Assembly (NCBI GenBank): GCA_017437755.1
Contig: JAFRXI010000075.1
Span: forward strand, 1-37,507
From: Bacteroidales bacterium
GTDB lineage: Bacteria > Bacteroidota > Bacteroidia > Bacteroidales > UBA932
Direction: 5' to 3'
Length of the DNA stretch: 37,507 nucleotides
Shown: positions 9,482 to 35,440 of the stretch, one piece after another
How positions within the stretch are numbered: position 1 is the first letter of the stretch
How the letters are laid out: the number at the start of each line of letters is the position of its first letter
Notes under the pieces: model-generated
Database searches by the model: none
What the model saw: the letters and a program-made list of their open reading frames with translations, nothing else
What the model was told of the DNA's origin: nothing
Position numbers and translations under genes: made by a program

Positions 9482-10696
9482 ATGAAAAAGATCCTGCTGA
9501 TGATTGCGCTGACCGTGCCGGTGTCATGCGGTCCCGCTTCCCCGGACGCCCCCAAGACCGTTATGGAAACCACCCTGGTCAGGGAGGGCGTCGCCGACCC
9601 GTGCCTGGTCTTTGACGACGGCCTCTATTACCTTACCTCGACAGGGGGGTCCAGGCTCGTGATGGTCAAGGACAAGTCCGTAGCCGGCCTGTCCAACGAG
9701 GCGCATCCGGGTTCGGAAGCGGCGGTCATATATGATTCCGCCGGGGATCCCACCGTGGAACAGCTGTATGGGGAAGGCGCCGTCATCAACGGCTGCTGGT
9801 CTCCCGAGATCCACTATTTCTCCGAGAAGGAGTTCCCCGGCAACTCGGGATGGTACATGTACTTTGGTCTCAGGCAGAAGTATTCCGACCAGACCGGGAC
9901 GTCGCGCAACATCAGGATGGTGGTGCTTAAGTCGGCCAGCGGCAAGGTGGACGGCCCGTACGTGAGCCCCGTCACAGGCGTGGTCTGCCAGACCCAGCCC
10001 GTGCTGGGGGCCGACGGCAACCCCATTGCCAGGTGGGCCGTGGGGCCGAGCGTCCTCCGCGTGCCGTCGGGCAAATACAGGGGAACCTACCTGATGTGGG
10101 TTGAGGAAACCGGCCGCGGCGAGGGATACGGCAAATTCTACCAGAAAATAATGATATCGCACTTCTCGTCCCCCTGGCAGCTGGAAGGCGAGCCCGGGAT
10201 CATAACCACGCCCACCCAGGAGTGGGAGACCCATGGCGCCAACGAGAAAAAGCCATGTGTGGTGGAGGGCGCCACGGCTGTTTACGGCGACCGCGGCGAG
10301 GTGTTCCTGACCTACTGCGGCAGCGGTTACTGGTCGGACTACGGAATCGGCCAGCTTACCCTTAAGCGCAAGGGCCGCAGGTTCGAGGATCCGCTCAAGA
10401 CGGAATCCTGGGTGAAGTACGATGGCAATCCGGTTTTTTCGTCCGTCAAGAGCGGGGACCTGCGCGGAGCGGGACACGGATTCTTCGTGAGGAGCGCCTC
10501 CGGCGGCCGTTTCATCTGCTATCATGCCTTCCCTTTTGAAAACGGGGAGAAGATAAACCGTCGCAACGCCTATCTGGAGCCCTACTCCATCGACAAGTCG
10601 GCGGCATGCCCCACGGCCCCGGACGGCGTAATCCGCATGGGGGCCCTCGGCACCGGGGTTACCGCACCGGTAAAAGGTACCAGGATAGAATTCTGA
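9482..10696 (+). CDS. GH43-like glycoside hydrolase lipoprotein (paralog 1)
   Basis: This 404-residue protein is a lipoprotein (TVPVSC with lipid Cys16) with a five-bladed beta-propeller of the GH43/GH32 clan type. ADPCLVF gives the likely base Asp39, CWSPE contains Glu109 where GH43 has its WAPD/E motif, and VEGATAVY contains Glu262, the likely general acid. The phrase YCGSGYWSDYGIGQLTL resembles the GH43 motif YSxSxxWTxxYxLGxLT. It shares all these with the protein at 31136-32428. GH43 enzymes mostly cut arabinose, xylose or galactose links; the subfamily here is unclear. An alternative ATG at 9470 overlaps the IclR stop as ATGA; 9482 gives the cleaner signal peptide. It is likely on the outer membrane or periplasmic. 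Confidence 0.75.
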   Translation: MKKILLMIALTVPVSCGPASPDAPKTVMETTLVREGVADPCLVFDDGLYYLTSTGGSRLVMVKDKSVAGLSNEAHPGSEAAVIYDSAGDPTVEQLYGEGAVINGCWSPEIHYFSEKEFPGNSGWYMYFGLRQKYSDQTGTSRNIRMVVLKSASGKVDGPYVSPVTGVVCQTQPVLGADGNPIARWAVGPSVLRVPSGKYRGTYLMWVEETGRGEGYGKFYQKIMISHFSSPWQLEGEPGIITTPTQEWETHGANEKKPCVVEGATAVYGDRGEVFLTYCGSGYWSDYGIGQLTLKRKGRRFEDPLKTESWVKYDGNPVFSSVKSGDLRGAGHGFFVRSASGGRFICYHAFPFENGEKINRRNAYLEPYSIDKSAACPTAPDGVIRMGALGTGVTAPVKGTRIEF

Positions 10697-19014: not shown

Positions 19015-19050
19015 AACAAAGAGTATTTGCCCGCCCGGGCCCCGCTTTGA

Positions 19051-19081
19051 GTTCAACATTATTAAAAACGTGGTATCTTTG
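19051..19081 (+). promoter_or_regulatory. Promoter of the toroid-mutarotase gene with embedded operator-like box
   Basis: GTTC at 19051-19054, then 19 nt, then TATCTTTG at 19074-19081, an exact TAnnTTTG. The box is 19 nt before ATG 19101. TTCAACATTATTAAA at 19052-19066 overlaps the -33 element and spacer and matches 12 of 15 positions of operator box 6, so this promoter may be under the same regulator. Confidence 0.6.
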
Positions 19082-19100
19082 TCCCAGAACTTGGACCATT

Positions 19101-21980
19101 ATGAGAAAAAGGAGTGCCCTAATTGCAATCTTACTCTCCCTTGCTGCGGTGCAACCCGGACTTGCGGGAGGTAAGACCCCGGAATTCAAGGTAGGAACCG
19201 TACCTTCAGAGGATGGACTTGAAACCACCCTGAAGGTAGCGGTCCTCCCTTCGGGAAAATATGAAAAAGGGATCAAGGTGTGGCGCATCGACGCCTCCGC
19301 CGTCAACAATACCCCGGACACAAAGACGTTCAAGCTGGTGCTGTGCGCCGAGCCGCACATCAGGGCCGACCGTTACCTGATTCCGGGGGTAATGTACAAC
19401 GGAAACGAGTTCGTGGGGGATTTCATCCTCAGCGACGGCCGGTCCTTTGCCAGCGCGATGCCCAACGGATGGGAGAAGGACGGGGAGCCGTGGATCTTTG
19501 CCGGCGACCGGAGCAGCATCCCTGCGTGCTCCATAAGCGAGAACCGGCGTAAGGCCTTCGGTCTCTTCGCTTCCGACTCGGACCTCAATTCCATCACCGG
19601 TTCCAGTTCCCTGGAGAAACTCCCCGACGGGTCCTTCAGGCATCTGATCTACTGGCCCATGACCGAGGCCCCCGTCTCCTATACCGACAAGCGTAAATTC
19701 ACCGACCGTTACGACACCTATATCACCCTGGCTCCCGGCGAGAGCTACAGCGTTACCGCCTTCGCGTGCCAGGGTCGCCCCAAGTGGAGGAACTACGGCT
19801 TCACCACGGTCTTCCCCATAGCCTGGAAGGTGCTCAGCCATGAGACAAAGGCCCAGCACACCATCGCCGAGACCGTCAGTCTGGACCGTACCTTCATGGA
19901 CTGGACCCGCAGGCGCAACGAGGAGGGTTCCTGGTTCGGCGGCGGCCACGACGACAAGATGTTCACCATGGGTTACATGAACATCCCGCGCTCCAAGGCC
20001 GGATACACCCTTGCCGATTACGAGAAGGACTTTACCCTTGACCGCTGGAATAACGACGACATAGAGAAGTCAAAGCTTCTCGCCCCCGGAGAATACCTTG
20101 TCAGCGGAGGTACCACAAACATCGGCTTTGCCTCCCAGAGTTTCCAAAGGGCGCGCGTTACGCTGGAGTATGCCCTTGAGGACGGAGACGCCGAGGGCGC
20201 CAGGTTCGGATGCGAGGTCCTCCGCAGCTGGATAAGGGTCCGGCAGCAGGAGAGCGGATTTTTCCGCAAGGGCAGGGCCCCCGTCCCCGGGAAAACGTTT
20301 ACCGACGCTTCCGAGGTGGGCTGGTCAATAGGCGAACTCGCCAGAACCGCGATGTTCCTGAGGGAGCATCGCAGTGAATTGGCGGCGCTCGGAATCGATG
20401 CGGATGACTATGCCGACGAGTTTGAGCAGTCTTCCGCCAAGGTGGTGAAAGCCCTCCTTGCCGTCCTGCCGGAAGACGGCGGCCTGGGTTCCCAGTGGGA
20501 CTTTGCAACCGGCGAAATGACCAATTCGGCCGGCGATTGCGGCGGTTATGTGCTGATGGGACTCGTCCGTTACTGGAAGCTGACCCGGGATCCGGATGTC
20601 AAGAAGGCCATCGACGGTGCGTTCAAGTACTATTTCGGCCGCGACATAGACCGTTTCGAGTGCAACGGCGGAGCAATGGACTGCTCCAGCGTCGACCGCG
20701 AGGGTATCCAGCCCTTCCTGTCGGCAGCGGTGGAGATGTGGGAGATGACCGGACGCCGGTGCTACCTCAACTATGCCCGCAAGGCCGGATGGTACTTCCT
20801 TTCCTGGGTGTACCTTCAGAATCCCACCTACGGTCCGGACCTCGACCTTTCCATATACAACTGGCGTCCCGCCGGAGCCACCATCGTGGGCACCGAGCAT
20901 TCCGCCCTCGACGATTACGGCAACCTGCTCATCTCGGAGCTGTTCACCCTTTCAAAGGTGGACAGGAATCCCATGTGGAAGGAGGTTGCGGCCTTGATGT
21001 GGCGTAACGGCACGCAGGGATTCGCCGACGGGAACCGCGAGATATGGCATTCGCTCGAGCGCCCTGTGGGCTCGAAGAACGAGGCCTGGTTCCAGACCCG
21101 CTGGAGCAAGTACCGCACCGGCGAGAACAAGAGGGGGAGCCTCAACGACCATCTCATGACCTGGGGCGGCACCTACCGGCTCGCCTCTCTCCTGGAGTTG
21201 TCGGAAGAGGATTATGCATGGCTGGAAAGCGTTTCCCAGCCGCAGACCCAGGTGGTGCTCTCCAATTCCTTGGGAGAGGCCCGTGTGGACCTTCGCGGAG
21301 CCAACATGCGCAGCTGGAAACCCGCCGGCCAGACCGAGGTGCTGGGTAACCTGGGCATTCCCATCTACTGGCCGTGGGCTATCTACGAGGGCCGTCCCGG
21401 CTGCAACATCCACGGCCTTACACCGTACTTCGACTGGCATGTGGTTTCGCAGGACAAGGACTGCGTGGTCCTCGCCCTCGACGACAGCGAATCCAGCCTC
21501 AGGGCATGGCCCCACAAGTTCCATGCAGAGATGAAATACACCCTCGGAGAGACGCTCACGGCCGAATTCACCGTGACCAACACCGACTCCGTGGAGTATT
21601 CCTGCACTGAGCTGCTGCATCCTTTCTTCAGGGTTTCCCATCCTTCCAACTGCACCATCGAAGGCCTTTCCGGCAGCAAGTATTTCTGGAAATACGAGGC
21701 CGACAAGGGTCACGACCGCATATGGAAGGGGGCTTTCCCGGTGAAAAACATCTCAGGCGGCAAGCCCGGAATCGTATTCGAGACCGGCGACGGGGCATAC
21801 ACCCTGGTTGACGGCAAACGCCGGGTGACCGCAGGTTTCAAGGGAGGCATAAAGTTCGTTGGATACGTGGCACCCGAAGGGGCGGTGGCCATGGAGACCG
21901 GTACGATCTACCGCGACCGGGCCTACACCCTCAAACCCGGAGAAACCCACACGGTCTCCGTCACACTTTCAGTTAAATGA
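19101..21980 (+). CDS. Exported glycan-active protein: (alpha/alpha)6-toroid-like region plus YeaD-like mutarotase domain
   Basis: This 959-residue protein has a signal peptide (MRKRSALIAILLSLAAVQPGLAG). Residues about 25-250 are beta-rich. Residues about 253-705 are helical and rich in Trp, Gly and acidic residues, with repeats in the manner of an (alpha/alpha)6 toroid (GWSIGELARTAMFLREH, AGDCGGYVLMGLVRYWKLT, GIQPFLSAAVEMWEMTG). From about 710 it resembles aldose-1-epimerase-like YeaD proteins: LGEARVDLRGANMRSWKP, then IPIYWPWAIYEGRPGCNIHG, like the family's GIPxCWPWFG...HGFxR. I know no named family with this order. It could be a hydrolase, lyase or epimerase. The start was moved from an upstream in-frame ATG to 19101, after the -7 box. 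Confidence 0.6.
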   Translation: MRKRSALIAILLSLAAVQPGLAGGKTPEFKVGTVPSEDGLETTLKVAVLPSGKYEKGIKVWRIDASAVNNTPDTKTFKLVLCAEPHIRADRYLIPGVMYNGNEFVGDFILSDGRSFASAMPNGWEKDGEPWIFAGDRSSIPACSISENRRKAFGLFASDSDLNSITGSSSLEKLPDGSFRHLIYWPMTEAPVSYTDKRKFTDRYDTYITLAPGESYSVTAFACQGRPKWRNYGFTTVFPIAWKVLSHETKAQHTIAETVSLDRTFMDWTRRRNEEGSWFGGGHDDKMFTMGYMNIPRSKAGYTLADYEKDFTLDRWNNDDIEKSKLLAPGEYLVSGGTTNIGFASQSFQRARVTLEYALEDGDAEGARFGCEVLRSWIRVRQQESGFFRKGRAPVPGKTFTDASEVGWSIGELARTAMFLREHRSELAALGIDADDYADEFEQSSAKVVKALLAVLPEDGGLGSQWDFATGEMTNSAGDCGGYVLMGLVRYWKLTRDPDVKKAIDGAFKYYFGRDIDRFECNGGAMDCSSVDREGIQPFLSAAVEMWEMTGRRCYLNYARKAGWYFLSWVYLQNPTYGPDLDLSIYNWRPAGATIVGTEHSALDDYGNLLISELFTLSKVDRNPMWKEVAALMWRNGTQGFADGNREIWHSLERPVGSKNEAWFQTRWSKYRTGENKRGSLNDHLMTWGGTYRLASLLELSEEDYAWLESVSQPQTQVVLSNSLGEARVDLRGANMRSWKPAGQTEVLGNLGIPIYWPWAIYEGRPGCNIHGLTPYFDWHVVSQDKDCVVLALDDSESSLRAWPHKFHAEMKYTLGETLTAEFTVTNTDSVEYSCTELLHPFFRVSHPSNCTIEGLSGSKYFWKYEADKGHDRIWKGAFPVKNISGGKPGIVFETGDGAYTLVDGKRRVTAGFKGGIKFVGYVAPEGAVAMETGTIYRDRAYTLKPGETHTVSVTLSVK

Positions 21981-22011: not shown

Positions 22012-22821
22012 ATGGCAAGAAATATTCTTATTACGGGTTCATCCCATGGTATCGGCGCAGGATGCGCAGTGGCGTTTGCAAGGGATGAGGGCGCCAATAT
22101 AGGCATTTGCGGAAACAAATGCCCTGAAGGGGCTGAGGAAGTCGCACGGCAGTGCGAGGCATACGGCGTCAAGACCAAAATATACCTCGGAAACGTGGGC
22201 GACCATGATTTCTGCAAGGCCACGATGGAGGATTTCATCGCGACTTTCGGCAAGATTGACGTACTTGTCAACAACGCCGGCGGCGCCCTGCAGATTCCCG
22301 GCGGCCCCAAGGGCGAGTTCAAGGATATGCCAATGGAATACTGGGACAGCCAGATAGCGCTGAACCTCAACAGCGCCGCTTACCTTTCGCGGTACGCGGT
22401 TGCCGACATGATAGAGAAAAAGACCGAAGGCCGTATCGTCAACATCTCGTCGATCCATGGCCAGGTGACCTGGGTCCATCGCCGCATGCTGCCTTATTCG
22501 GCAGGCAAGGCCGGACTGAACATGTTCACCAAGGCCCTGGGGGTGGAGGTGGCCAAGTACGGGATCCGCGTAAACTGCGTGGCTCCGGGCCTTATTTTTA
22601 CCAAGGTCATTGCGCGCTATTCAAAAGCCGACCTGGAGGCCTTCTCGCACAAGATCCCCGTTGGACGCGGCGGCTCTGTGGAGGAGATCGTCCCCACGGT
22701 CCAGTTCCTCGCCGATATAGAGAAGACCCGCTTCATCGTGGGTCAGGTTATCTGCGTGGACGGCGGGCAGTCGGCCGACGGGACGATTGAATCGATGAAT
22801 TTTCCTCTGTACCAAGGCTAA
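22012..22821 (+). CDS. SDR-family sugar dehydrogenase (glucose/gluconate dehydrogenase-like)
   Basis: This 269-residue cytoplasmic protein is a classical short-chain dehydrogenase. The NAD(P)-binding motif TGSSHGIG is at 8-15, NNAG at 87-90, catalytic Ser147 in NISS, and YSAGK with Tyr162 and Lys166. The loop between Ser147 and Tyr162 is two residues longer than usual. The C-terminal GQVICVDGGQSADG is typical of glucose 1-dehydrogenase and gluconate 5-dehydrogenase relatives. As first gene of a sugar-acid operon it most likely oxidises the imported sugar to its lactone or interconverts keto and hydroxy acids; that role is inferred from context. The next gene starts 21 nt later. Confidence 0.85.
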   Translation: MARNILITGSSHGIGAGCAVAFARDEGANIGICGNKCPEGAEEVARQCEAYGVKTKIYLGNVGDHDFCKATMEDFIATFGKIDVLVNNAGGALQIPGGPKGEFKDMPMEYWDSQIALNLNSAAYLSRYAVADMIEKKTEGRIVNISSIHGQVTWVHRRMLPYSAGKAGLNMFTKALGVEVAKYGIRVNCVAPGLIFTKVIARYSKADLEAFSHKIPVGRGGSVEEIVPTVQFLADIEKTRFIVGQVICVDGGQSADGTIESMNFPLYQG

Positions 22822-22842: not shown

Positions 22843-24495
22843 ATGAAACTTAAAAGTCAGTGGGAATTCGGCCAGGCGAGCGAATGCCGCCGCGGGCTGA
22901 TGTGCGGAATGGGATATTCCGCGGAAGAGCAGGACAGGCCGCGTATCGCGGTAGTCAATTCATGGAACGAGTACAATCCCGGACACGTCCATCTCAGGCA
23001 GCTTGCCGAGAGGGTGAAGGCCGGTATTCGTGATGCCGGAGGACTTCCCCTCGAGGTGATGACGACCGGCATTTGCGACGGAATGGTGCTGAAGAATCCC
23101 AAGTACATCGAGGTCCCCAGCCGCAACTCCATTGCAGACCAGGTGGAACTTACGGTGGAAGGCAATTTCTTCGACGGAATGGTACTCCTCTCCACCTGCG
23201 ATTCCATCGTTCCCGGGCACCTCATGGGGGCGGCCAGGATCGACATTCCCGCCATCATGGTGACGGGCGGATATATGCCGCTGGGAGTATGCCGCGGACA
23301 GGAAGTGCTGCATATCCATGCCCAGGACAAGGTGGGCGCCATGGAGGCCGGCCGTATCGACCCTGACCTCTACAACGACCTCATCCAGCACTCCTGGGGA
23401 ACCTGCGGAGGCTGCACCTCTATGACCACTGCCAACTCCATGTGCATGGTAGCCGAGGCCCTGGGAATGTCGCTTCCCGGCAACTCCACCGTGGCCGCCA
23501 CGTCCAGCGAGCTCTATCTGATTGCCTATCAGTCCGGATTACGCATCATGGATATGGTAAGGAAGGGAATCACCGCCCGCCAGATCATCACCCCCAAGTC
23601 CATCCGCAACGCCATCAAGATGGATATGGCCATCGCAGCGTCGGCCAACCTGATCCTCCACATCCCGGCCATCGCCAACGAGGCCGGCTACGACGAACCC
23701 TGGTGGAAGTACTTCGACGAGGCGTCCAACGACATTCCGCTCCTTGCCCATATCGCGCCGAGCGGTCCCAAGTATTCGGTGCACGACCTCTGCCTCGCCG
23801 GCGGCATGCCGGCCCTGCTTAAGGAGCTGCTGCCCAAGCTCGACGGCGACTGCCTCACCGTTACCGGAAAGACCCTCGCCGAGAACGTCCGGAACGCCGT
23901 TGTGTACAACCACGACGTCATCCATTCCCTGGACAATCCCGTCATGAGGATGCCGGGCATCGGCGTGCTCTACGGCAGCCTTGCCCCTGAAGGGTCGATC
24001 ATCAAGATTGCCGCTGTGCCCGAACACCTTATGACCTACAGCGGCCCCGCCCGCGTATTCGACGAGGAGGACGATGCACTCAAGGCTCTCAAGAACGGTG
24101 AAATCAAGCCCGGAGACGCCTGCGTGCTGCGCTTCCTCGGCCTCAAGGGTCGTTTCGGAACCACAGCGTTCATGTTCCAGGAGATGCTCAAGGGCCGCAA
24201 GGAACTCTTCAATTCCTGCGCTATCATCTCCGACGGACGCTTCTCCGGAGGCTCCTCCGGCCTTTCGGTGGGCTATGTCTCGCCCGAGGCCGCGCTTATG
24301 GGTCCTCTCGGGCTCGTCAAGGACGGCGATATCATAACCATCGACGTCCCCAACCGCCGGATCGACGTGGATGCCGACCTGGAGTCCCGCAAGAAGGACT
24401 TCAACTGGAAGTACGACAGCTCCAAGTATCCTCGCTACCTGAATACATTCGTCAAGAACGTGGGCTCCATGGCCCATGGTGGAATCTGGGAGTAA
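22843..24495 (+). CDS. IlvD/Edd-family sugar-acid dehydratase
   Basis: This 550-residue protein belongs to the dihydroxy-acid/6-phosphogluconate dehydratase family, which uses a labile Fe-S cluster to turn an aldonic acid into a 2-keto-3-deoxy acid. Cluster-ligand Cys119 is in STCDS, and Cys191 aligns with the family ligand (CTSMTTANSM against CNTMGTASTM). The third family Cys, normally in PCN near the N-terminus, is replaced: the sequence is NSWNEYNPGH with Gly47. An extra Cys188 stands three residues before Cys191 (GTCGGC). The C-terminal part has SDGRFSGGSSGLSVGYVSPEA, as expected. With KDG kinase and KDPG aldolase directly downstream it should make 2-keto-3-deoxygluconate or an epimer. 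Confidence 0.88.
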   Translation: MKLKSQWEFGQASECRRGLMCGMGYSAEEQDRPRIAVVNSWNEYNPGHVHLRQLAERVKAGIRDAGGLPLEVMTTGICDGMVLKNPKYIEVPSRNSIADQVELTVEGNFFDGMVLLSTCDSIVPGHLMGAARIDIPAIMVTGGYMPLGVCRGQEVLHIHAQDKVGAMEAGRIDPDLYNDLIQHSWGTCGGCTSMTTANSMCMVAEALGMSLPGNSTVAATSSELYLIAYQSGLRIMDMVRKGITARQIITPKSIRNAIKMDMAIAASANLILHIPAIANEAGYDEPWWKYFDEASNDIPLLAHIAPSGPKYSVHDLCLAGGMPALLKELLPKLDGDCLTVTGKTLAENVRNAVVYNHDVIHSLDNPVMRMPGIGVLYGSLAPEGSIIKIAAVPEHLMTYSGPARVFDEEDDALKALKNGEIKPGDACVLRFLGLKGRFGTTAFMFQEMLKGRKELFNSCAIISDGRFSGGSSGLSVGYVSPEAALMGPLGLVKDGDIITIDVPNRRIDVDADLESRKKDFNWKYDSSKYPRYLNTFVKNVGSMAHGGIWE

Positions 24496-24499
24496 TACT

Positions 24500-25114
24500 A
24501 TGATCGTTGCAATAATACGGGGCTTCGAGCCGGAGGTCTGCCTCCGGCTCGCTGAAGCCTATGAAAAGGGCGGGATCAACATGGTTGAGGTGACTTTCAA
24601 CCAGAAGGCCCCCGAAACGTGGAAGGATACCGCCGCCGCCATCAAATCCATCAAGGAACACTTCGGCGGAACCGTAAAGGTGGGTGCCGGGACCGTGCTG
24701 ACGCCACAGCAGCTGAGGATCTGCGAAGACGCCGGCGGCGAGTTTATGGTCACGCCCAACACAAACCCCTCCCTGATAAGGCAATGCGTTGCCGACGGCC
24801 TGGTTGCGATGCCCGGAGCCCTTACCCCCACCGAAGCCGTGGAGGCATTCGACGCCGGTGCAAGCTATGTCAAGATTTTCCCCGCCGGATCGCTCGGCCC
24901 GGGATACATAAAAGCCATCAAGGCACCCCTGTCGCACATCCCCCTGCTGGCCGTGGGCGGAATAGGCCCCGACAACATCGCCGATTTCATCAAGGCCGGC
25001 TGCGTCGGAGCAGGAGTTGGCGGCAATCTTACCAATAAGGAATGGATCCGTGCTGGCGAGTGGGACAAGATAACCGCCACCGCCGCCCTGCTTGTCAAAA
25101 ACTCACAAAACTAA
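24500..25114 (+). CDS. eda: KDPG-type aldolase (2-keto-3-deoxy-6-phosphogluconate aldolase)
   Basis: This 204-residue class I aldolase has the KDPG family signatures: VEVTF with Glu30, GAGTVL, TPNTNP, and YVKIFPA with the Schiff-base Lys125, then AVGGI for phosphate binding. It splits KDPG (or KDPGal) into pyruvate and glyceraldehyde 3-phosphate. ATG 24500, 4 nt after the dehydratase stop, is preferred over an in-frame ATG at 24476 that lies inside the dehydratase gene. Length is normal. Confidence 0.93.
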   Translation: MIVAIIRGFEPEVCLRLAEAYEKGGINMVEVTFNQKAPETWKDTAAAIKSIKEHFGGTVKVGAGTVLTPQQLRICEDAGGEFMVTPNTNPSLIRQCVADGLVAMPGALTPTEAVEAFDAGASYVKIFPAGSLGPGYIKAIKAPLSHIPLLAVGGIGPDNIADFIKAGCVGAGVGGNLTNKEWIRAGEWDKITATAALLVKNSQN

Positions 25115-25120
25115 GTTCCT

Positions 25121-26146
25121 ATGAAAGTCGTTACTTTCGGTGAAATAATGATGCGCCTGAATCCGGAGGGATACCAGCGCTTCTATCAGGCCGAGAAATT
25201 CGAGGCCTCCTATGCCGGCGGCGAGGCCAATGTGGCCGTTTCGCTGGCAAATTACGGGGTGGACGCTTCCTTTGTGACCAAGCTCCCTGCAAATCCCCTC
25301 GGGGAATGCGCCCGCAATGCAATCCGTCATTTTGGCGTTGAAACCAAGGACATCGTATGGGGCGGCCCCCGTCTGGGTATCTACTTTGTGGAGAAAGGTG
25401 CCTCGCAGCGTGCCTCCAAGGTGGTTTATGACCGTGCCGGTTCGTCCATCGCAACGGCAAGGCGCGGGGATTTTGACTGGGCGAAGATATTCGACGGGGC
25501 CGGTTGGTTCCATTTCACCGGCATCACCCCGGCCCTCGGTGGTGAACTGCCGGCCATCTGCCTCGACGCCCTGGAATACTGCCGCGCCCACGGGATCACG
25601 GTATCGTGCGACCTCAACTACCGCGGCAAGCTGTGGACAAAGCAGGAAGCCGGCAGGGTGATGGCGGAACTCGTCCCGTATGTGGATGTCCTGATCGCCA
25701 ACGAGGCCGACGCCGCAGATGTCTTTGGCATAGTGGGCAAGGGAAGCGACGTGGAATCGGGCAAGCTCAACAAGGAGGGATACGTCTCCGTGGCCGAGCA
25801 GCTGGTAGAGCGCTTCGGTGTGGGCAAGGTGGCCATAACCCTCAGGACCTCGCTCTCAGCCTTTGACAACCTCTGGGCCGGGATGCTGTACGACGCCAAG
25901 ACCGGAACCACCTGTTTCTCAACGGAATACAAGGTTCACATAGTGGACCGCGTGGGTGGAGGCGACAGCTTTGGCGGCGGACTCATCTATGCGCTGCTTT
26001 CCGGCAAGGACACGCAGGGTGCGATTGATTTTGCCGTGGCGGCAAGCTGCCTGAAGCATTCCATCGAGCACGATTTCAACCTTGTAACCGTCCAGGAAGT
26101 GGAAACCCTGGCTGCCGGAAACGGTACCGGAAGGGTGCAAAGATAA
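25121..26146 (+). CDS. kdgK: 2-keto-3-deoxygluconate kinase (PfkB family)
   Basis: This 341-residue protein is a PfkB/ribokinase-family sugar kinase. The N-terminal GEIMMRLNPEGYQRFYQAEK and YAGGEANVAVSLANYG fit 2-keto-3-deoxygluconate kinases, and the anion-hole and catalytic motif DRVGGGDSFGGGL contains base Asp282. It phosphorylates KDG at C6, making the substrate of the aldolase encoded 6 nt upstream. Order dehydratase-aldolase-kinase gives a semi-phosphorylative Entner-Doudoroff route. Confidence 0.92.
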   Translation: MKVVTFGEIMMRLNPEGYQRFYQAEKFEASYAGGEANVAVSLANYGVDASFVTKLPANPLGECARNAIRHFGVETKDIVWGGPRLGIYFVEKGASQRASKVVYDRAGSSIATARRGDFDWAKIFDGAGWFHFTGITPALGGELPAICLDALEYCRAHGITVSCDLNYRGKLWTKQEAGRVMAELVPYVDVLIANEADAADVFGIVGKGSDVESGKLNKEGYVSVAEQLVERFGVGKVAITLRTSLSAFDNLWAGMLYDAKTGTTCFSTEYKVHIVDRVGGGDSFGGGLIYALLSGKDTQGAIDFAVAASCLKHSIEHDFNLVTVQEVETLAAGNGTGRVQR

Positions 26147-26161
26147 CCTGCAACAGTATTG

Positions 26162-27226
26162 ATGGGAAGAGAGATCTTTATCATAGGCGGCGGACTGGCC
26201 GGCTGGCGGGCGGCGGAGGCCGCCGTCCGCGGCGGGGCGTCGGTGACGCTGGCGGCCAACGGTCCCGGCAACAGCCCCGACATCCACGCCCTGAACTGTC
26301 CGGTGCTTCCGGAGGATTCGGTGGAAAAGTTCATCGAGGACACCATGAAGAGCGGCCGGTACCAGAACGACCGGGCCCTTGTGGAAACGATGTGCCGCGA
26401 GTCGCTGTCGCTCAAGGACGAGTTCGACTTTGACGGCACCGTCATCCGCCCGGTGGGCACTTCGGTTCCGCGCTGCGTGTCCATCCGTCACGCCATCGGG
26501 GCAATCGCCGTGAAGGGGATCAAAGACCGCTTGAAAGGCCGTGTAACGGTGGAAAGGCGTACCGTAAGCGCTGACGATGTGCTTGCGCTTCGTGCCGCCG
26601 ACCCCGCAGTGAAAATCATCATCGCCACCGGCGGATGGTGCGGAAAATACGACTTCTCGGACAATCCGTCCTATCTCAAGGGCGACGGGCTGGTGATTGC
26701 CCGGGCGCTCGGGGCGGCGGTACGGGACGTGGACGAGGCGCACGTGCAGTACGAACCCACCGTCCGTATCGAGGGTCCCCGGCGCGGCATACCGGTTATA
26801 ACCACGCTCCTGTATGAGGGAGCCCGGCTGCTGACCCCGGACGGGAAGGAATTCCTGGAAGACGCCCGCCTTAACAAGGATGAACTTTCCAGGGCCATTC
26901 TGGGCATAGGCGGAACGGCCATCTATGACCTGACCGCAGTGCCGGAAGAAAAGATCCGTGAATGCAACATGGATCCGGACGAGAGGATAATAAAGGTCGC
27001 TCCGGCACCGCATTCCTCCATGGGCGGAATTGTGATCGATACCAGATGCCACGCGCTCGATGACGGCGGGCGTATCGTTCCCGGCGTATTTGCCTGCGGC
27101 GAAGTGACTGCCGGCATTCACGGGCTCAACCGCCTGGGCGGCAACGGTGGCACGGCGGCAATGGTTTTCGGCGCCATCGCCGGACGGGAGGCGGCGCTGG
27201 AAGTTAAAAATGAAAAGGAATCATGA
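26162..27226 (+). CDS. Small FAD-dependent oxidoreductase, FrdA/aspartate-oxidase-like
   Basis: This 354-residue protein has the FAD-binding motif IIGGGLAG near its start and the fumarate reductase/L-aspartate oxidase words LLYEGARLLTPDGKEFLEDA, HSSMGGIVIDT, PGVFACGEVTAGIHGLNRLG and GN, but it is far shorter than the 530-600 residues of those enzymes. The capping domain is reduced and the C-terminal helical domain is missing. The family phrase QFHPT is QYEPT here, so an active-site His is replaced by Glu. ATG 26162 is used, not the preceding TTG. Its last codons overlap the DUF1116 start (ATGA), which suggests the two products work together. Substrate unknown; an alpha-hydroxy or unsaturated acid is likely. 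Confidence 0.7.
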   Translation: MGREIFIIGGGLAGWRAAEAAVRGGASVTLAANGPGNSPDIHALNCPVLPEDSVEKFIEDTMKSGRYQNDRALVETMCRESLSLKDEFDFDGTVIRPVGTSVPRCVSIRHAIGAIAVKGIKDRLKGRVTVERRTVSADDVLALRAADPAVKIIIATGGWCGKYDFSDNPSYLKGDGLVIARALGAAVRDVDEAHVQYEPTVRIEGPRRGIPVITTLLYEGARLLTPDGKEFLEDARLNKDELSRAILGIGGTAIYDLTAVPEEKIRECNMDPDERIIKVAPAPHSSMGGIVIDTRCHALDDGGRIVPGVFACGEVTAGIHGLNRLGGNGGTAAMVFGAIAGREAALEVKNEKES

Positions 27227-28236
27227 AACCTGAAGAATTACGATATAAAGGCGATCCTTACTGGATTGACGTTAAAAGCGCCGGAGAGTTCCTGGGACTT
27301 CCCGACAAGACCGTGCTGCATGCTGGGCCTCCCATCGAGTATTCCAGGATGTGCGGTTCCCATCAGCGAAGCATGGTGAACGCCTGTTTCTTCGAGGGTT
27401 GGGCCAGGACGGAGGCCGAGGCCGTCCGTATGCTCCAAAGCGGCGAAGTCAAGGTTGAGGCGGCCTTTGACTATGCCACCAACGGCTCGGGGTACGGCAT
27501 CATCACAAAGTCCGTCCCGCTTCTGATCGTGGAGGACCGCGAGACCGGCGGTGTGGCCGGGCTTTTCCCTGCCGAAGGGAAGTTCGGCGGCGGTTTCTGC
27601 GGCTGGGGCGTATATTCCGAGGATATAGCGGCAAACTTGCGATGGCTTGGAAATGAATTGTTTCCGCCGCTTGTGTCAGTCCTGAAGGATGCCGGCGGAT
27701 TCCCCATGAGGGAACTTTTCCACGAGGCGCTCCGCATGGGCGACGAACTGCATTCATCGCAGAAGGCCATCGATCCTCTGTTCACCCGCGCCATCATCCC
27801 GTACGTCCTGAAGTGTCCCAACAGGGACGCTTTGCTGGACTATTTTGCCACCACCAACCGCTTCACCCATAATTTCGGGCAGGCGGCGAGCCGGGCCCTG
27901 CTGCTGGGACTGGAAAAGCAGGGAGTCAAGGGCCTGATGACCGCCGCCGGAGGAAACGGGGTGGAATACGGCATCAAGGTAGACGGGGTATGGCACGTAG
28001 CCCCTTCGCCGATGATCGTGGGACCCTATCTCACGCCCGGAGCCAGGAAGGAGAACCAGCTTCCCTGGCTGGGCGACAGTTCCGTGGTGGAATGCCGCGG
28101 CTGGGGAGGCACCATACGCCCCATCAATCCGGACTTCGGGGTTGAAGGGAAGGGCCTGGTCATAAACGGTGGAATGATGGACGTGAACGGCGGCTGGATG
28201 GGCGCAGGCTCCACCCGTATGCCGGTATATGTTTGA
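27223..28236 (+). CDS. Short DUF1116 protein, AllG/YlbE-like
   Basis: This 337-residue protein matches the DUF1116 family, known from E. coli YlbE (AllG), which I recall as a subunit of oxamate carbamoyltransferase acting with FdrA (AllF) and YlbF (AllH). Shared words include LLHAGPP (here VLHAGPP), ACFFEGWA, GIITKSVPLLIVED, VYSEDI and ALRMGDELH, with GAGSTRMP at the end like GAGTVRAP. It is about 80 residues shorter than YlbE, the loss lying mainly before the last 60 residues. No FdrA or YlbF partner is in this window. It overlaps the flavoprotein gene by 4 nt and the cupin-MBL gene starts 2 nt after its stop. Its function in sugar-acid breakdown is unknown. Confidence 0.75.
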   Translation: MKPEELRYKGDPYWIDVKSAGEFLGLPDKTVLHAGPPIEYSRMCGSHQRSMVNACFFEGWARTEAEAVRMLQSGEVKVEAAFDYATNGSGYGIITKSVPLLIVEDRETGGVAGLFPAEGKFGGGFCGWGVYSEDIAANLRWLGNELFPPLVSVLKDAGGFPMRELFHEALRMGDELHSSQKAIDPLFTRAIIPYVLKCPNRDALLDYFATTNRFTHNFGQAASRALLLGLEKQGVKGLMTAAGGNGVEYGIKVDGVWHVAPSPMIVGPYLTPGARKENQLPWLGDSSVVECRGWGGTIRPINPDFGVEGKGLVINGGMMDVNGGWMGAGSTRMPVYV

Positions 28237-28238
28237 TT

Positions 28239-29474
28239 ATGGACGGATTGGATATACTTGAACACGGCGGGACCGAGTATCGCCGCCTAGTGAACAATGC
28301 CAGGTGGACGCTCGCTTCGCTGAACTGGGCGCCCAGGTTCGACGAGGCCAACCTCGCCGAACTGGAACGGCATAACCGCACCGACGAGACTTTTGTCCTG
28401 CTTCATGGAAAGGCCACGCTTCTGTTGGGGGAGAAGGCCGAGCGGGTGGTAATGGAACCTCTCAAATATTACAACGTCCGCGCCGGCATCTGGCATCATA
28501 TCCTTGTTTCCAGGGATGCCCGCGTGCTGGTGGCGGAAAATGCCGATACATCCAAGGACAATACCGAGTATCTATCCCTGGCAACCGGGAAGGTCTTCAG
28601 GAAGCGTCCGGGATTCGAGGAGGTGCTGCCCGGAATCTGTCTGCTGAAAGTTCCGTTCGGTCCGGTCTGGACAGGAATCATCCTGGTCAGGGGCGATAAA
28701 AACATCCTCATCGACTCGTCGCACCTGGAACCGGAGAAATACCTTATCCCCGCGCTGGAGGACCTTGGAATGAAGCTCGGCGATATCCACTGGCTCCTGA
28801 ATACCCATGTCCACGGCGACCATATCGGCGGGCATCACGCCCTCGTTACCCGGTACGGCCTAAGGACGGCTACGCTGAAATCTTCCGCGGACGCCCTTCG
28901 CGACCCGGTGAAGGTGGCCATCCGCGTAAGGACCCGTTTCCCTAAAAATTCCCCGCCGCCCCAGTCGTATCTCAAGGGGGTGGAACCCGATAAGCTCCTG
29001 GAAGAGAAAGAGTTGCTTGAGGGCCGTTTCTATGCCGTGGCCACTCCCGGACACGATGACGACTGCCTCACATGGGTGGATTCCGTCACTGGGACGGCCT
29101 TTACGGGAGACTCCATACAGGCCAACGGCACCCCCACCCAGGGGATAGGTTTTTACCGCAACCTGGACTCTTACCGCCGCAGCCTGGATGTCCTTTCCGG
29201 GCTCGGCCTGGAAAATATTGTCTGCGGACACGACTACGACGGGATAGGCAGCGTGGTGAAGGGCAGGGAAGCAGTTTCGGCGGCACTCCGCTACTGTGCC
29301 GAAAGGGTGGAACTGTATGACCGGAAGATAAAGGAATATGTGGCTTCGGGCGTTCCCGTTGAAGAGGAGCCCGTGTCGATCGCGCTCAAACTTATCGGCG
29401 AGGTGGGCTGCGGAATGCCGGATGCGCTCTTCCTGGCTTTGCACACCGTTTCCGAGCATTTGAAAAACAAATAA
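28239..29474 (+). CDS. Cupin-metallo-beta-lactamase fusion hydrolase
   Basis: This 411-residue protein joins an N-terminal cupin-like beta-barrel (about 20-120, with TFVLLHGKATLLLG and RAGIWHHILVSRDARVLVAE) to a metallo-beta-lactamase-fold domain (about 125-340). All metal ligands of a dinuclear site are present: His190, His192, Asp194 and His195 in THVHGDHIGGHH, His272 in TPGHDDD, Asp291 in FTGDS and His331 in CGHDYD. MBL-fold enzymes include lactonases such as UlaG, so a sugar-acid lactonase between the SDR and the dehydratase is a reasonable inference. A C-terminal helical tail covers about 345-411. ATG 28239 is used; the upstream TTG at 28233 overlaps the DUF1116 stop. Confidence 0.75.
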   Translation: MDGLDILEHGGTEYRRLVNNARWTLASLNWAPRFDEANLAELERHNRTDETFVLLHGKATLLLGEKAERVVMEPLKYYNVRAGIWHHILVSRDARVLVAENADTSKDNTEYLSLATGKVFRKRPGFEEVLPGICLLKVPFGPVWTGIILVRGDKNILIDSSHLEPEKYLIPALEDLGMKLGDIHWLLNTHVHGDHIGGHHALVTRYGLRTATLKSSADALRDPVKVAIRVRTRFPKNSPPPQSYLKGVEPDKLLEEKELLEGRFYAVATPGHDDDCLTWVDSVTGTAFTGDSIQANGTPTQGIGFYRNLDSYRRSLDVLSGLGLENIVCGHDYDGIGSVVKGREAVSAALRYCAERVELYDRKIKEYVASGVPVEEEPVSIALKLIGEVGCGMPDALFLALHTVSEHLKNK

Positions 29475-29483
29475 GATAAATAT

Positions 29484-31133
29484 ATGAGTCTCAATTACAT
29501 CGACTACATCGTCATGGCCGCGTTCTTTGCGGCGCTTATTCTTATCCCGGCGGTTTCCGGACTGAAATCCAAAGGGAAAGGCGCCAAAGAGTACTTCAAA
29601 TCCGCCGGCACCATGCCCTGGTGGCTTATTGGAGTCTCGATGGTGGCCGCAACCACGAGCACCAACTCTGCGAACCTGTTCACGGAGATCATCCGCCGGG
29701 ACGGCCTTAGCGGAAACTGGGTGTGGTGGGCCTTCCTGCTCACCGGCATGCTCACGGTCTTTGTGTATTCCAAACTCTGGGTGCGGTCCGGTGCCACAAC
29801 CGACATTTCCTTCTACGAACTCCGCTACTCGGGCAAGCCAGCGGCTTTCCTCCGCGGCTTCAGGGCGCTTTATCTGGGCGTGATCTACAACCTTGTGGTG
29901 ATGGCCACGGTGCTCCTCGGCGCGGTCAAGATAGGGGTGGTCCTGTTCGGGGTCCCGGCCTCCACAATCCTTATCGTAACCGGCGTCGTTTCAATTATTT
30001 ATTGCTCCCTGTCGGGAATCCGTGGGACGATCTATACGGACTTCTTCATCTTTGCGGTGGTGATGACCGGCGCCTTTGCGGTCATGCATTACAGCGTACA
30101 TCATCCCGCTGTGGGCGGATGGTCCAGCCTTATGAGCAATCCGGAGGTCACCTCGCGCCTTTCGTTCATTCCGTCCCTCTCCAATAAGGAGGCATTCATC
30201 GCAGTATTCCTCATCCCCGTTGCGGTGCAGTGGTGGAACGTGTGGTACTCCGGCTCCGAGCCGGGCGGCGGCGGATACATCGTCCAGCGCATGCTCACGG
30301 CCAAGAGTCCCAAACACGCAGTGGGCGGTACGCTGTTCTTCAATGTCCTGAACTATGCCCTCCGTCCCTGGCCCTGGTACATCGCGGCATTCGCGTCGAT
30401 TCTGATCTTCCCCAACCTCTCTTCCATCCGCGAGGCCTTCCCCAGCGTGGACCCCGCCCTCGTGGGCGACGACATGGCCTATCCGGCCCTGATCAAGATA
30501 GTTCCCAACGGATGGATCGGACTGGTTGCCGCTTCCCTGATGGGAGCCCTGTTCTCCACCATCGCCGCGCAGCTTTCCATGGGTGCCAATTACGTCACCA
30601 ACGATATCTGGAAACGCTTTGTGAGGAAGGACGCCTCAGACAAGGAACAGATCCTCGTTGCAAGGGTCTCGTCCATAGTCCTCATGGTACTGGGCTGCAT
30701 CATGGTGCCGCTCTTCGAGAGCGCCAAGGCCGGGTTCGACATGATGGTGCAGATAGGTGCCGGAACCGGCATCATCTTCCTGCTCAGATGGTTCTGGATG
30801 CGCATCAACGCATGGACGGAGATCGTGGCCATGGGTGTTTCCATCCTCTGTGCCGTGTTCTTCCAGATGATCTGGCCCAAGATAGGCGGCGTTGAACTTC
30901 TCTTCTACGAGAAACTCCTCTGGACCATCCTCATAACCACCGTTTCATGGCTTGTGGTCACCTTCCTCACCGCCCCTGAAAAGCCCGAGGTGATTGACAG
31001 GTTCAAGTCGCTGGTCAGGGCCGACGGACGCGACGTGGGCAAGGGCCTCCTCAAGATGTTTGTCGCATCCATCGCCATCTACGCCTTCATGTGGGGCATC
31101 GGGGCACTTATCGGAGCTATTGGAGGAAATTGA
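29484..31133 (+). CDS. Sodium:solute symporter (SSS family)
   Basis: This 549-residue inner membrane protein has the SSS layout of about 13-14 transmembrane helices, with the early conserved stretch STNSANLFTEI (about 58-68) and the later IYTDFFIFAVV and LMGALFSTIAAQLSMGANYV, which corresponds to the sodium-binding fifth-repeat helix. It couples sodium influx to uptake of a sugar or sugar acid. Position between the catabolic enzymes and the last GH43-like gene suggests it brings the monosaccharide or acid freed in the periplasm into the cell. Confidence 0.93.
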   Translation: MSLNYIDYIVMAAFFAALILIPAVSGLKSKGKGAKEYFKSAGTMPWWLIGVSMVAATTSTNSANLFTEIIRRDGLSGNWVWWAFLLTGMLTVFVYSKLWVRSGATTDISFYELRYSGKPAAFLRGFRALYLGVIYNLVVMATVLLGAVKIGVVLFGVPASTILIVTGVVSIIYCSLSGIRGTIYTDFFIFAVVMTGAFAVMHYSVHHPAVGGWSSLMSNPEVTSRLSFIPSLSNKEAFIAVFLIPVAVQWWNVWYSGSEPGGGGYIVQRMLTAKSPKHAVGGTLFFNVLNYALRPWPWYIAAFASILIFPNLSSIREAFPSVDPALVGDDMAYPALIKIVPNGWIGLVAASLMGALFSTIAAQLSMGANYVTNDIWKRFVRKDASDKEQILVARVSSIVLMVLGCIMVPLFESAKAGFDMMVQIGAGTGIIFLLRWFWMRINAWTEIVAMGVSILCAVFFQMIWPKIGGVELLFYEKLLWTILITTVSWLVVTFLTAPEKPEVIDRFKSLVRADGRDVGKGLLKMFVASIAIYAFMWGIGALIGAIGGN

Positions 31134-33517: not shown

Positions 33518-35440
33518 ATGAAACATTTTACATTACCAAGAGAGGGCGGTCTCATTGAGAATGGGCTGCCCAAGGGTATTCTCCACGGTTATGAGAAAGT
33601 GACCGCGGAGGTTTTTTCGGAATCCAGGGAAGCGGCCCGCGAAATAGCCGACACCATAGTCGCTGCAATCAACGGCACCAAGGACAGGTATTTCCGTCTG
33701 GGTCTCACCACCGGGGCCACCCCCGTATCGCTTTACAACGAGCTGGCAAGGCGTTGCAGCGCCGGGGAAGTCTCGTTCAAGGATGTGGAAATAGTGTCCA
33801 TCGACGAATACTATCCTTCCAGCAGCGATGAACGCCAGAGCCGCAACCACCGTCTTCACGAGGCCCTTCTGGACAAGATCGACATTCTGCCTGAAAATAT
33901 CCATATCCCCGACGGCACCGTTCCGCAGGACAAGGTTTCCGACTATTGCGCCGGATTCGACAAATATGCCAGGAACCTGGACCTCCTGGTGATAGGCATA
34001 GGCGAACTGGGGCAGCTTGGCTTCAACGAGGCCGGTTCGTCGGAGAAGAGCCGCACCCGCACCGTAAGGCTATCGTACCAGTCGCGCAAGCGCCAGTCCC
34101 GCAACTTCAACGGCGACCTGTCTGCTACACCCAGTGCGGCCATCACCGTGGGCATAGGCACCATGCTCTCCGCCTCAAGGATAATAGTGATGGCCTGGGG
34201 CGAAGACAAGGCCGGGGCCGTGAAGGCCATCGTGGAAGAGCCCATCAACCCGTCCTGTCCGGCTTCTTATCTCCAGAAGCACGATAATGTTTCCATATAT
34301 GTGGACGAGAGTGCCGCCTGCCTTCTCACCAGGGTGGTGGCGCCGTGGATGGTGGGGCCCTGCGAGTGGACTCCCAAATTCATCCGCAAGGCAGTGGTAT
34401 GGCTGTGCCAGACGGTTCACAAACCCATCCTCAAGTTAACGGAGAAGGATTATCTGGAGAACAACTTGGGAGAGCTGATAGAGCGCTTCGGGCCCTACGA
34501 CCAGATCAACATAAAGGTCTTCAATGACCTCCAGCACACCATCACCGGATGGCCCGGAGGAAAGCCGAACGCCGACGATACCACCCGTCCCGTCTCTGCG
34601 AAACCTTATCCCAAGACGGTCCTGATCTTCTCGCCCCATCCCGACGACGACGTCATCTCCATGGGCGGAACCTTCATCCGTCTGGTTAGCCAGGGGCACG
34701 ACGTGCATGTGGCGTACGAGACTTCCGGCAACGTGGCCGTGCATGACGATGTGGTCCTGCAGCACATGGACGCCGCCTTCCAGCTTGGCTTTGCCGACAA
34801 GTTCGCCGAGGTCAAAGCGCTGGTGGACAGCAAGAAGCCCGGTGAGCCGGAGCCCAGGGAGCTGCTGAATATCAAGGGTGCCATCCGCCGCAGCGAGGCC
34901 CGCGGAGCGGTCCGCTCCTTCGGGCTCAACGACAATACCAACGCGCATTTCCTGAACCTTCCGTTCTATGAGTCCGGCGGCGTGAAGAAGAATCCTCGCA
35001 CCCAGGCCGACATAGACATCATCAAGAAGCTGATATCCGATCTCAAGCCGCATATGATATTCATGGCCGGCGACCTGGCCGACCCCCACGGAACCCACCG
35101 CGTGTGCACCGAGGCGGCACTGGAGGCCATCGAGCAGCTTAAGGAAGAGGGTTGCGGGTGGATTGCCGACACCCATGTGTGGCTCTATCGCGGCGCCTGG
35201 ATGGAGTGGGAACTCGGCCGCGTCGACATGGCTGTCCCGCTGAGTCCGGACGAACTCATCAAGAAGCGTCACGCCATCTTCCGCCACCTCTCGCAGAAGG
35301 ACATCGTCCCGTTCCCGGGCGACGACCCGCGCGAGTTCTGGCAGAGGGCCGAGGAGCGCACGCAGAACACCGCAAGGCTCTACGACGAGCTGGGAATGGC
35401 TGAGTATCAGGCGATTGAGGTTTTCCTTAAACTTTATTAG
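33518..35440 (+). CDS. NagB-like domain (degenerate) fused to LmbE/PIG-L deacetylase domain
   Basis: This 640-residue two-domain protein is of a type common in Bacteroidota and often annotated as glucosamine-6-phosphate deaminase. Residues about 25-280 are NagB-like, with [10 protein letters not shown] and SIDEYYP (Asp96 matching E. coli Asp72). However [16 protein letters not shown] replaces the usual [16 protein letters not shown]: E. coli Asp141 becomes Leu164 and His143 becomes Gln166, while Glu148 remains as Glu171. Deaminase activity is therefore doubtful. Residues about 365-600 are an LmbE/PIG-L domain with intact zinc motif SPHPDDD (His374, Asp376, Asp377) and DPHGTHR (His524, His527), suggesting amide hydrolysis such as N-deacetylation of an amino sugar. 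The intact NagB is encoded 2 nt downstream. Confidence 0.85.

Follow-up and report, generated by a model that had tools for sequence, protein, structure and literature searches.

The stretch of DNA analysed here, referred to as the window, comprises 37,507 nucleotides of contig JAFRXI010000075.1 (assembly GCA_017437755.1) from a Bacteroidales bacterium, and the genes under study form a three-gene block on its forward strand, inside a putative sugar-acid operon. The first gene (26162..27226) encodes a 354-aa flavoprotein (FAD) of the FAD_binding_2 family (121 bits in the Pfam search), similar to fumarate reductase and aspartate oxidase, with its start placed at the ATG at 26162, three bases 3' of a TTG. 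The second (27223..28236, 337 aa) encodes a short AllG/DUF1116 protein, and the third (28239..29474) encodes CupMBL, which joins a cupin-like domain to a metallo-beta-lactamase-fold (MBL) hydrolase and is a candidate aldonolactonase. The start of AllG (ATG at 27223) and the end of FAD overlap by 4 nt and a 2-nt gap separates the AllG stop (28236) from the CupMBL ATG (28239), so the open reading frame (ORF) coordinates confirmed the coupling described in an earlier reading of this DNA made from sequence alone (the sequence-only reading). The Pfam search also bore out its placement of the trio between a 2-keto-3-deoxygluconate (KDG) kinase and a sodium symporter, as the block is flanked on the same strand by a PfkB-family, KDG kinase-like gene (KdgK, 25121..26146) and by a sodium:solute symporter gene (SSF, 29484..31133). 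Further upstream on the same strand are located a short-chain dehydrogenase/reductase (SDR, 22012..22821; candidate aldose 1-dehydrogenase), an IlvD/EDD dehydratase (22843..24495; candidate aldonate dehydratase) and a KDPG/KHG aldolase of the Eda family (24476..25114).

A genome scan based on two peptide patterns yielded 32 loci, of which 12 belong to the same genus (L030-L041), 18 lie outside it (L042-L059) and 2 are canonical. In the 12 other same-genus loci the FAD and AllG genes were always adjacent, and FAD, AllG and CupMBL were contiguous in 10 of them, so the tight packing is not a matter of chance; the two remaining loci are L038, which is rearranged, and L039, which like L034 ends at a contig edge. 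Gene counts in these 12 loci were SDR 11, IlvD 10, Eda 12, KdgK 9 (none was found at the other three), FAD 12, AllG 12, CupMBL 11 and SSF 9. The trio had been regarded as a separate module, a view that is not supported, because the unit is the operon SDR-IlvD-Eda-(KdgK)-FAD-AllG-CupMBL-SSF and not a free-standing trio, and in genomes G941 and G946 an SDR-IlvD-FAD block is found on another contig than MBL-AllG-SSF. The same split was seen in G948, where a contig break could explain it. That this operon is the working unit is well supported and very probable. Promoter-like sites between 18900 and 33600 (5, against a mean of 5.6 in shuffles) and terminator-like sites (12 against 12.9) were no commoner than in shuffled sequences and are thus uninformative on transcripts.

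The protein encoded at 27223..28236 matched PF06545 (AllG) along the whole profile (1-215) with an E-value of 8.8e-40 and 137 bits, above the gathering score of 27, which confirmed its assignment to DUF1116 and ruled out the contrary possibility. With E-values up to 1 accepted, 3clq_A was its sole PDB match (E 3.1e-27). Its description as a short protein was also correct: in the alignment the inner segment has 17 residues, versus 64-65 in nine longer family members, and about 48 residues of this segment are missing while the glycine-rich end is kept. The shortness of the protein is due to an internal deletion and not to a C-terminal loss. Seven residues that are invariant in the 8 canonical rows (M90, K124, R127, N180, R244, D282 and T316) all differ in the window AllG (G90, G124, G127, Q180, G244, W282 and G316), and at these positions the 37 sugar-operon rows (31 short and 6 longer) were separated without exception from the 8 canonical ones, a count that is descriptive since the positions were selected on this very alignment and many of its rows are closely related. 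Two further AllGs, from G1116 and G1033, agreed with the sugar-operon class at the seven positions. A histidine at window position 82 was present in 8/8 canonical rows and in 0/37 sugar-operon rows. Four of the eight canonical rows, read in annotated records, adjoin fdrA, DUF2877 and carbamate kinase genes. Judged by these residues, the sugar-operon AllGs are a distinct class within the family.

The sequence-only reading had placed AllG in a sugar-acid operon without its usual FdrA and YlbF partners, and for FdrA the searches agreed with this. When four FdrA and five AllH proteins were compared with the window by tblastn, no match was obtained at E up to 0.1 (AllH was searched in the window alone), and three carbamate kinases gave a single chance-level match of 46 residues on the opposite strand (E 0.037). 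The FdrA of locus L090, used as query, had no match at E up to 1e-12 in the genome of the window (G000, 84.87% complete), nor was FdrA found with this query in four other same-genus genomes and in the genomes of L048, L049, L054 and L055. FdrA was detected in 3 of the 19 genomes searched, two of them canonical and the third G1033, whose locus L090 has the order FAD, FdrA, AllG, SDR, MBL, dihydrodipicolinate synthase (DHDPS)-type aldolase, IlvD; this FdrA scored 433.5 bits, the cut-off being 433. The same genome contains another stretch (L131 5728-11536, G1033:C1, about 4.05 Mb) in which FdrA, a sugar-class AllG and AllH are found together. No carbamate kinase was recognized among the four ORFs scanned in it, and the next large ORF upstream matched CBM9 and, weakly, GH42. 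L131 is a possible intermediate between oxamate carbamoyltransferase (OXTCase) and the sugar module. Clusters with the order DUF2877-fdrA-DUF1116-carbamate kinase were also observed on E. coli and Citrobacter plasmids (L126, L127 and L129), two of which are typed as conjugative.

In CupMBL, the Pfam search located a Lactamase_B domain at 144-333. The metal-binding motifs of MBL-fold hydrolases (HxHxDH, H, D and H; HVHGDH, PGHD, GDS and GH in the window protein) were present, all four strings, in 28/28 rows taken from the window, the same-genus loci and the short-AllG loci, and the literal HVHGDH string was missing in 6 of 7 distant MBL rows. The protein fell short of the NCBIfam cut-off for subclass B3 beta-lactamases (52.5 versus 240 bits), and from its place in the pathway it could be a lactonase. 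The N-terminal residues 17-119 matched 3d0j_A (CA_C3497), an uncharacterised protein, and no cupin was called by Pfam in the window CupMBL; a 63% identical stand-alone protein of L085 matched Cupin_2 weakly, and in our reading the domain is a cupin. Cupin stretches without the MBL part, 61-67% identical to the cupin domain, were found at L085 8606-12328, adjoining a GH28-DUF6259 protein, and at G698:C37:8529-8897. At three loci MBL and AllG are encoded in one ORF, which includes the cupin in L059 (777 aa) and lacks it in L043 and L045 (686 aa, counted from a start chosen by us). As L043 and L045 are near-identical, these fusions represent two independent cases. They are the best evidence on the physical partner of AllG, so that the MBL protein is better supported in this role than the flavoprotein proposed in the sequence-only reading. 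A structural model of the L059 fusion was discarded as a source on cupin-MBL-AllG contacts (mean pLDDT 59.8, pTM 0.48, with the cupin and much of AllG below 50). It had also been held that the conventional pathway genes do not need the trio; this is doubtful, since a pathway with a sugar dehydrogenase and an aldonate dehydratase would as a rule require a lactonase too, a role that the MBL protein could play.

The flavoprotein shares the FAD_binding_2 fold with fumarate reductase, succinate dehydrogenase (SDH) and L-aspartate oxidase, and residue roles are known from work on fumarate reductase. The window protein is shorter than these enzymes (354 aa), and it carries Glu199 and Lys240 (TTG-start numbering) in place of the substrate His and the catalytic Arg, so the residue pair that marks fumarate reductase or SDH function is absent; the PHxxxGG-type His (His285) and the HGx[ND]R Arg (Arg325) are kept. 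The Glu, within Q[YF]EP[TCA], and the Lys were found in 32/32 module rows, and His and Arg in 3/3 SDH-like comparators. In fumarate-reductase-type flavoproteins the kept His and Arg hold one carboxylate, and, because both were conserved in 32/32 module rows, a monocarboxylate such as a sugar acid would suit the protein; we infer that the substrate carries a single carboxylate as well as hydroxyls. Broken-looking copies of the flavoprotein gene were seen in L042 5025-6902 (two pieces) and at G937:C73:10223-11353 (one internal stop). A plasmid search with the L090 flavoprotein gave 24 records, four of which were read and showed SDH-like or other contexts, and the same search with CupMBL gave no match.

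AllG of the sugar-operon kind was detected in 1/149 genomes of the family sample (that of the window itself), and AllG in 3/395 genomes of the phylum sample, the two others being FdrA-linked canonical forms. Within the genus AllG was found in 13/400 genomes, the own genome included, and CupMBL in the same 13/400 genomes plus one cupin-only genome; CupMBL was also found in 12/240 genomes sampled from the phylum of G940. The trio is therefore not confined to one genome, as its genes recur in many, both within the genus and beyond it. Of the 18 loci outside the genus, 13 carry record titles of Verrucomicrobia or Kiritimatiellae; several titles name the rumen or gut of buffalo, goat, roe deer or sheep, and L036 belongs to 'Candidatus Cryptobacteroides intestinipullorum'. 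Gene counts outside the genus were SDR 8, IlvD 10, Eda 6, KdgK 5, FAD 11, AllG 18, MBL 17 and SSF 14. Where the AllG stretch lacks FAD, the gene is mostly elsewhere in the same genome: at E up to 1e-40 FAD was present in 17 of the 18 genomes behind L038 and L042-L059, and the eighteenth has a FAD-like end at a contig edge. In the AllG tree the window and the 12 same-genus sequences formed one group (support 99/97) next to Verrucomicrobia/Kiritimatiellae-type sequences. The AllG and IlvD trees had the same large groups with the exception of L042, from a 5.2-Mb genome, whose IlvD is nested in the same-genus group, and this placement suggests lateral transfer, in whichever direction.

Ten stretches surrounding the more distant matches of the CupMBL search in the phylum of G940 were read. 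L081, L082, L084, L086 and L090 contain SDR, IlvD, FAD, MBL and AllG; L087 and L089 contain MBL without AllG; and L083, L085 and L088 contain fewer module genes. In five to seven of these loci the identities to the best module query were 38-60% for SDR, 57-59% for IlvD, 35-40% for FAD and 32-43% for AllG, and in L081, L082 and L084 MBL and AllG are divergent genes. In G1116 an SDR-IlvD-AllG stretch is located on another contig (L130). The module copy of G1033 that lacks FdrA (L089) lies between two 3-keto-disaccharide hydrolase-like (DUF1080) genes (1718-2467 and 9775-10515), of which one was recognized by Pfam and the other by similarity.

As far as our searches show, AllG is experimentally known only as a subunit of OXTCase. 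The three OXTCase subunits, AllG among them, were identified in 2024 in a study that did not settle their individual roles; there, single mutants of each gene made no oxamate, save partial values on complementation given in a table, and a triple mutant produced 16% of wild-type oxamate with allGH and 7% with allFG (PMC11326118). Compared with E. coli OXTCase (AllFGH), the window AllG shows homology along the complete Pfam profile, and 33 alignment columns were identical across 13 rows of sugar-operon and canonical proteins. It differs in the seven class-diagnostic residues, in the shortened inner segment, in the FdrA that was not detected in its genome, in the FdrA and AllH that were not detected in the window, and in the fusion to MBL at three other loci. 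Among the listed matches in the open-access literature, judged by titles and abstract openings, no account of this operon or of AllG in sugar catabolism was found, although a description could exist.

The De Ley-Doudoroff and semi-phosphorylative Entner-Doudoroff pathways employ an SDR, an IlvD-type dehydratase, a KDG kinase-like enzyme and a KDPG-type aldolase; the window operon has in addition the flavoprotein and AllG, and its kinase is not constant. Non-phosphorylative route III for pentoses and deoxyhexoses (PMC6336799) follows the same logic as the pathway proposed for the window, with a sugar dehydrogenase and an aldonate dehydratase first and a further dehydrogenase and a C-C cleavage after them. 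In route III the last two steps are catalysed by an SDR 4-dehydrogenase and an FAH-family diketo hydrolase, whereas in the window they would fall to an FAD protein and AllG, which are unrelated to those enzymes; the operon also encodes an aldolase and, mostly, a kinase. PF01557, the FAH family of route III, had no match in G000, G893 and G805. The zinc anomerase YhcH of sialic acid operons (PMC8141875), likewise a small metalloprotein from an operon for a sugar acid, is a possible model for the cupin domain, whose own match is the uncharacterised 3d0j_A.

For the substrate and chemistry of the operon we infer, tentatively, an oxidative, Entner-Doudoroff-like sugar pathway of which the three genes would be parts, the specific chemistry assigned to AllG and the flavoprotein being possible and no stronger than that. 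An aldose would enter through the SSF symporter and be oxidised at C1 by the SDR to a lactone, which the MBL domain would hydrolyse, perhaps with help of the cupin in ring opening. Dehydration of the aldonate by IlvD would yield a 2-keto-3-deoxy acid, which the flavoprotein may oxidise at C4 to give a 2,4-diketo acid, and AllG may split this acylpyruvate into pyruvate plus a hydroxy acid; Eda and KdgK would constitute a parallel branch. With FdrA, as in L090, the cleavage could be phosphorolytic and yield an acyl phosphate, and without FdrA it would be hydrolytic. AllG is proposed as an acylpyruvate cleaver because oxalurate (H2N-CO-NH-CO-COO-) shares its skeleton with an acylpyruvate (R-CO-CH2-CO-COO-), and because oxamate, a pyruvate isostere, mimics pyruvate. 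Neither the Eda of the window nor the DHDPS of L090 had a tblastn match within 18 kb of L081, L082 and L084, which was counted in favour of the diketo route. A broader proposal, which we consider doubtful, is that the AllG family holds a second class that cleaves acylpyruvates (2,4-diketo-3-deoxyaldonates) and derives from, or has a common origin with, an FdrA-linked form that could use phosphate to break the C-C bond and so save energy as acyl phosphate; its FdrA-free form would occur in gut Bacteroidales and Verrucomicrobia/Kiritimatiellae, coupled or fused to MBL, with a flavin-dependent sugar-acid dehydrogenase supplying its substrate. In L041 (13910-16585), lutABC-like lactate oxidation genes lie directly 3' of the SSF symporter, an observation from a single locus that would fit a lactate product.

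Several points weigh against acylpyruvate cleavage by AllG. The diketo route is not forced, because Eda, and mostly KdgK too, is encoded in the operon (Eda in 12/12 other same-genus loci) and Eda-family genes were present in 12/12 other genomes checked; for the same reason the absence of Eda was dropped as an argument. No AllG match was obtained in G1156, which has MBL-SDR-IlvD-FAD, or in G1174, which has MBL and a cut SDR at a contig end. FAH-family genes were found in 6/14 genomes checked, G1156 and G1174 among them. The replacement of AllG by FAH in these two was considered and dropped, as FAH was also present in 11/14 control genomes and the strongest matches (three regions, L120-L122) are not beside module genes. 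Chemistry of the flavoprotein at C2 or C3 is as possible as at C4, we know of no ligand-bound AllG, and the KDG kinase suggests a terminal hydroxyl and hence a hexose and not a 6-deoxy sugar. In L087 an additional SDR adjoins FAD; it was considered as a 4-dehydrogenase but scored as FabG. Sulfoquinovose, 4-O-methylglucuronate and L-rhamnose were also considered as substrates and none had decisive support; nothing was found pointing to the nitrogen-substituted substrate suggested in the sequence-only reading.

The operon might alternatively be a semi-phosphorylative Entner-Doudoroff pathway (SDR, MBL lactonase, IlvD, KdgK and Eda) in which FAD and AllG act on an unusual sugar ahead of the KDG stage, removing or oxidising a modification that it bears, an explanation that we hold to be conceivable without being probable. 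Every conventional gene of this type is present in the window, and KdgK occurs in 9/12 other same-genus loci and 5/18 loci outside the genus, with homologues in 21/21 genomes checked. However, KdgK was not found at L034, L037 and L040, whose genomes (78-89% complete) hold a 54-55% paralogue (that of G805 also a 29% one) and no close copy, and the L081, L082 and L084 stretches contain SDR-IlvD-FAD-MBL-AllG without a KdgK or Eda match, both being found elsewhere in those genomes.

Two other explanations concern AllG itself. It is unlikely that AllG has remained a transferase of carbamoyl or acyl groups whose substrate is an acyl-urea or amide derivative of a sugar, with MBL giving water in place of FdrA-bound phosphate. 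The columns common to sugar-operon and canonical proteins, the location of sugar-class AllGs next to FdrA and AllH in L131 and next to FdrA in L090, and the partial oxamate production by allGH without allF (PMC11326118) are in line with it. The seven class switches and the loss of the canonical His at 82 argue against it, as do the failure to find FdrA in nine short-AllG genomes and the fact that 4/4 annotated canonical records have a carbamate kinase, for which the window gave the chance-level match alone. Equally improbable is a non-catalytic or scaffolding AllG, a subunit of the MBL lactonase without a reaction of its own. This would agree with the MBL-AllG fusions in L043, L045 and L059 and with MBL being found without AllG in the L087 and L089 stretches; against it, AllG shows the strongest conservation among the three proteins (mean column identity of 92% in 12 sequences, versus 86% in 10 for CupMBL and 82% in 12 for FAD), and the genes are divergent in L081, L082 and L084.

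With an FdrA-free branch of AllG, in which core residues are kept and class residues are switched, the division of roles among the OXTCase subunits becomes open to test on one or two purified proteins. The operon marks a sugar-acid pathway common to Bacteroidales and Verrucomicrobia/Kiritimatiellae of animal guts, and its flavoprotein class has an active-site pattern unlike that for dicarboxylates. Were the acylpyruvate route true, anaerobes would have a non-homologous means of completing the oxidative breakdown of sugars.

Upstream of the operon, a gene on the forward strand (19047..21980) encodes a large 977-residue protein composed of an N-terminal part without Pfam family and a C-terminus resembling aldose 1-epimerase. 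Outside the genus several loci encode the two parts as separate genes, and homologues of the N-terminal part (about 700 residues) that stand alone are found close to AllG in several extra-genus loci. The model of the N-terminal protein was of moderate quality (pLDDT 69.1, pTM 0.78), and Foldseek returned cellobiose phosphorylases, the polysaccharide lyase BACCELL_00875, a GH76 and cellobiose 2-epimerases with low TM-scores, which suggests a helical-barrel fold of glycosidase or lyase class, only the fold class being used here. A SusD was also recognized in this upstream region, and a 1086-residue upstream ORF was taken for SusC from its position. DUF5696 recurs beside module genes in L033 2686-4470 and L049 6834-8612 (by Pfam) and in L067 10403-12175, L081 1782-3494 and L084 4404-6128 (by similarity); the L033 protein also matched GH101 weakly, and no mention of this family was found in the open-access literature searched. 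In L050 (5594-9017), genes for a xylulokinase (above cut-off), a zinc alcohol dehydrogenase and a DeoC-type aldolase lie just before MBL-AllG-SSF, and SDR-IlvD-FAD is on another contig (L062). In the window, a single ORF at 33518-35440 joins glucosamine-6-phosphate isomerase-like and PIG-L deacetylase-like domains.

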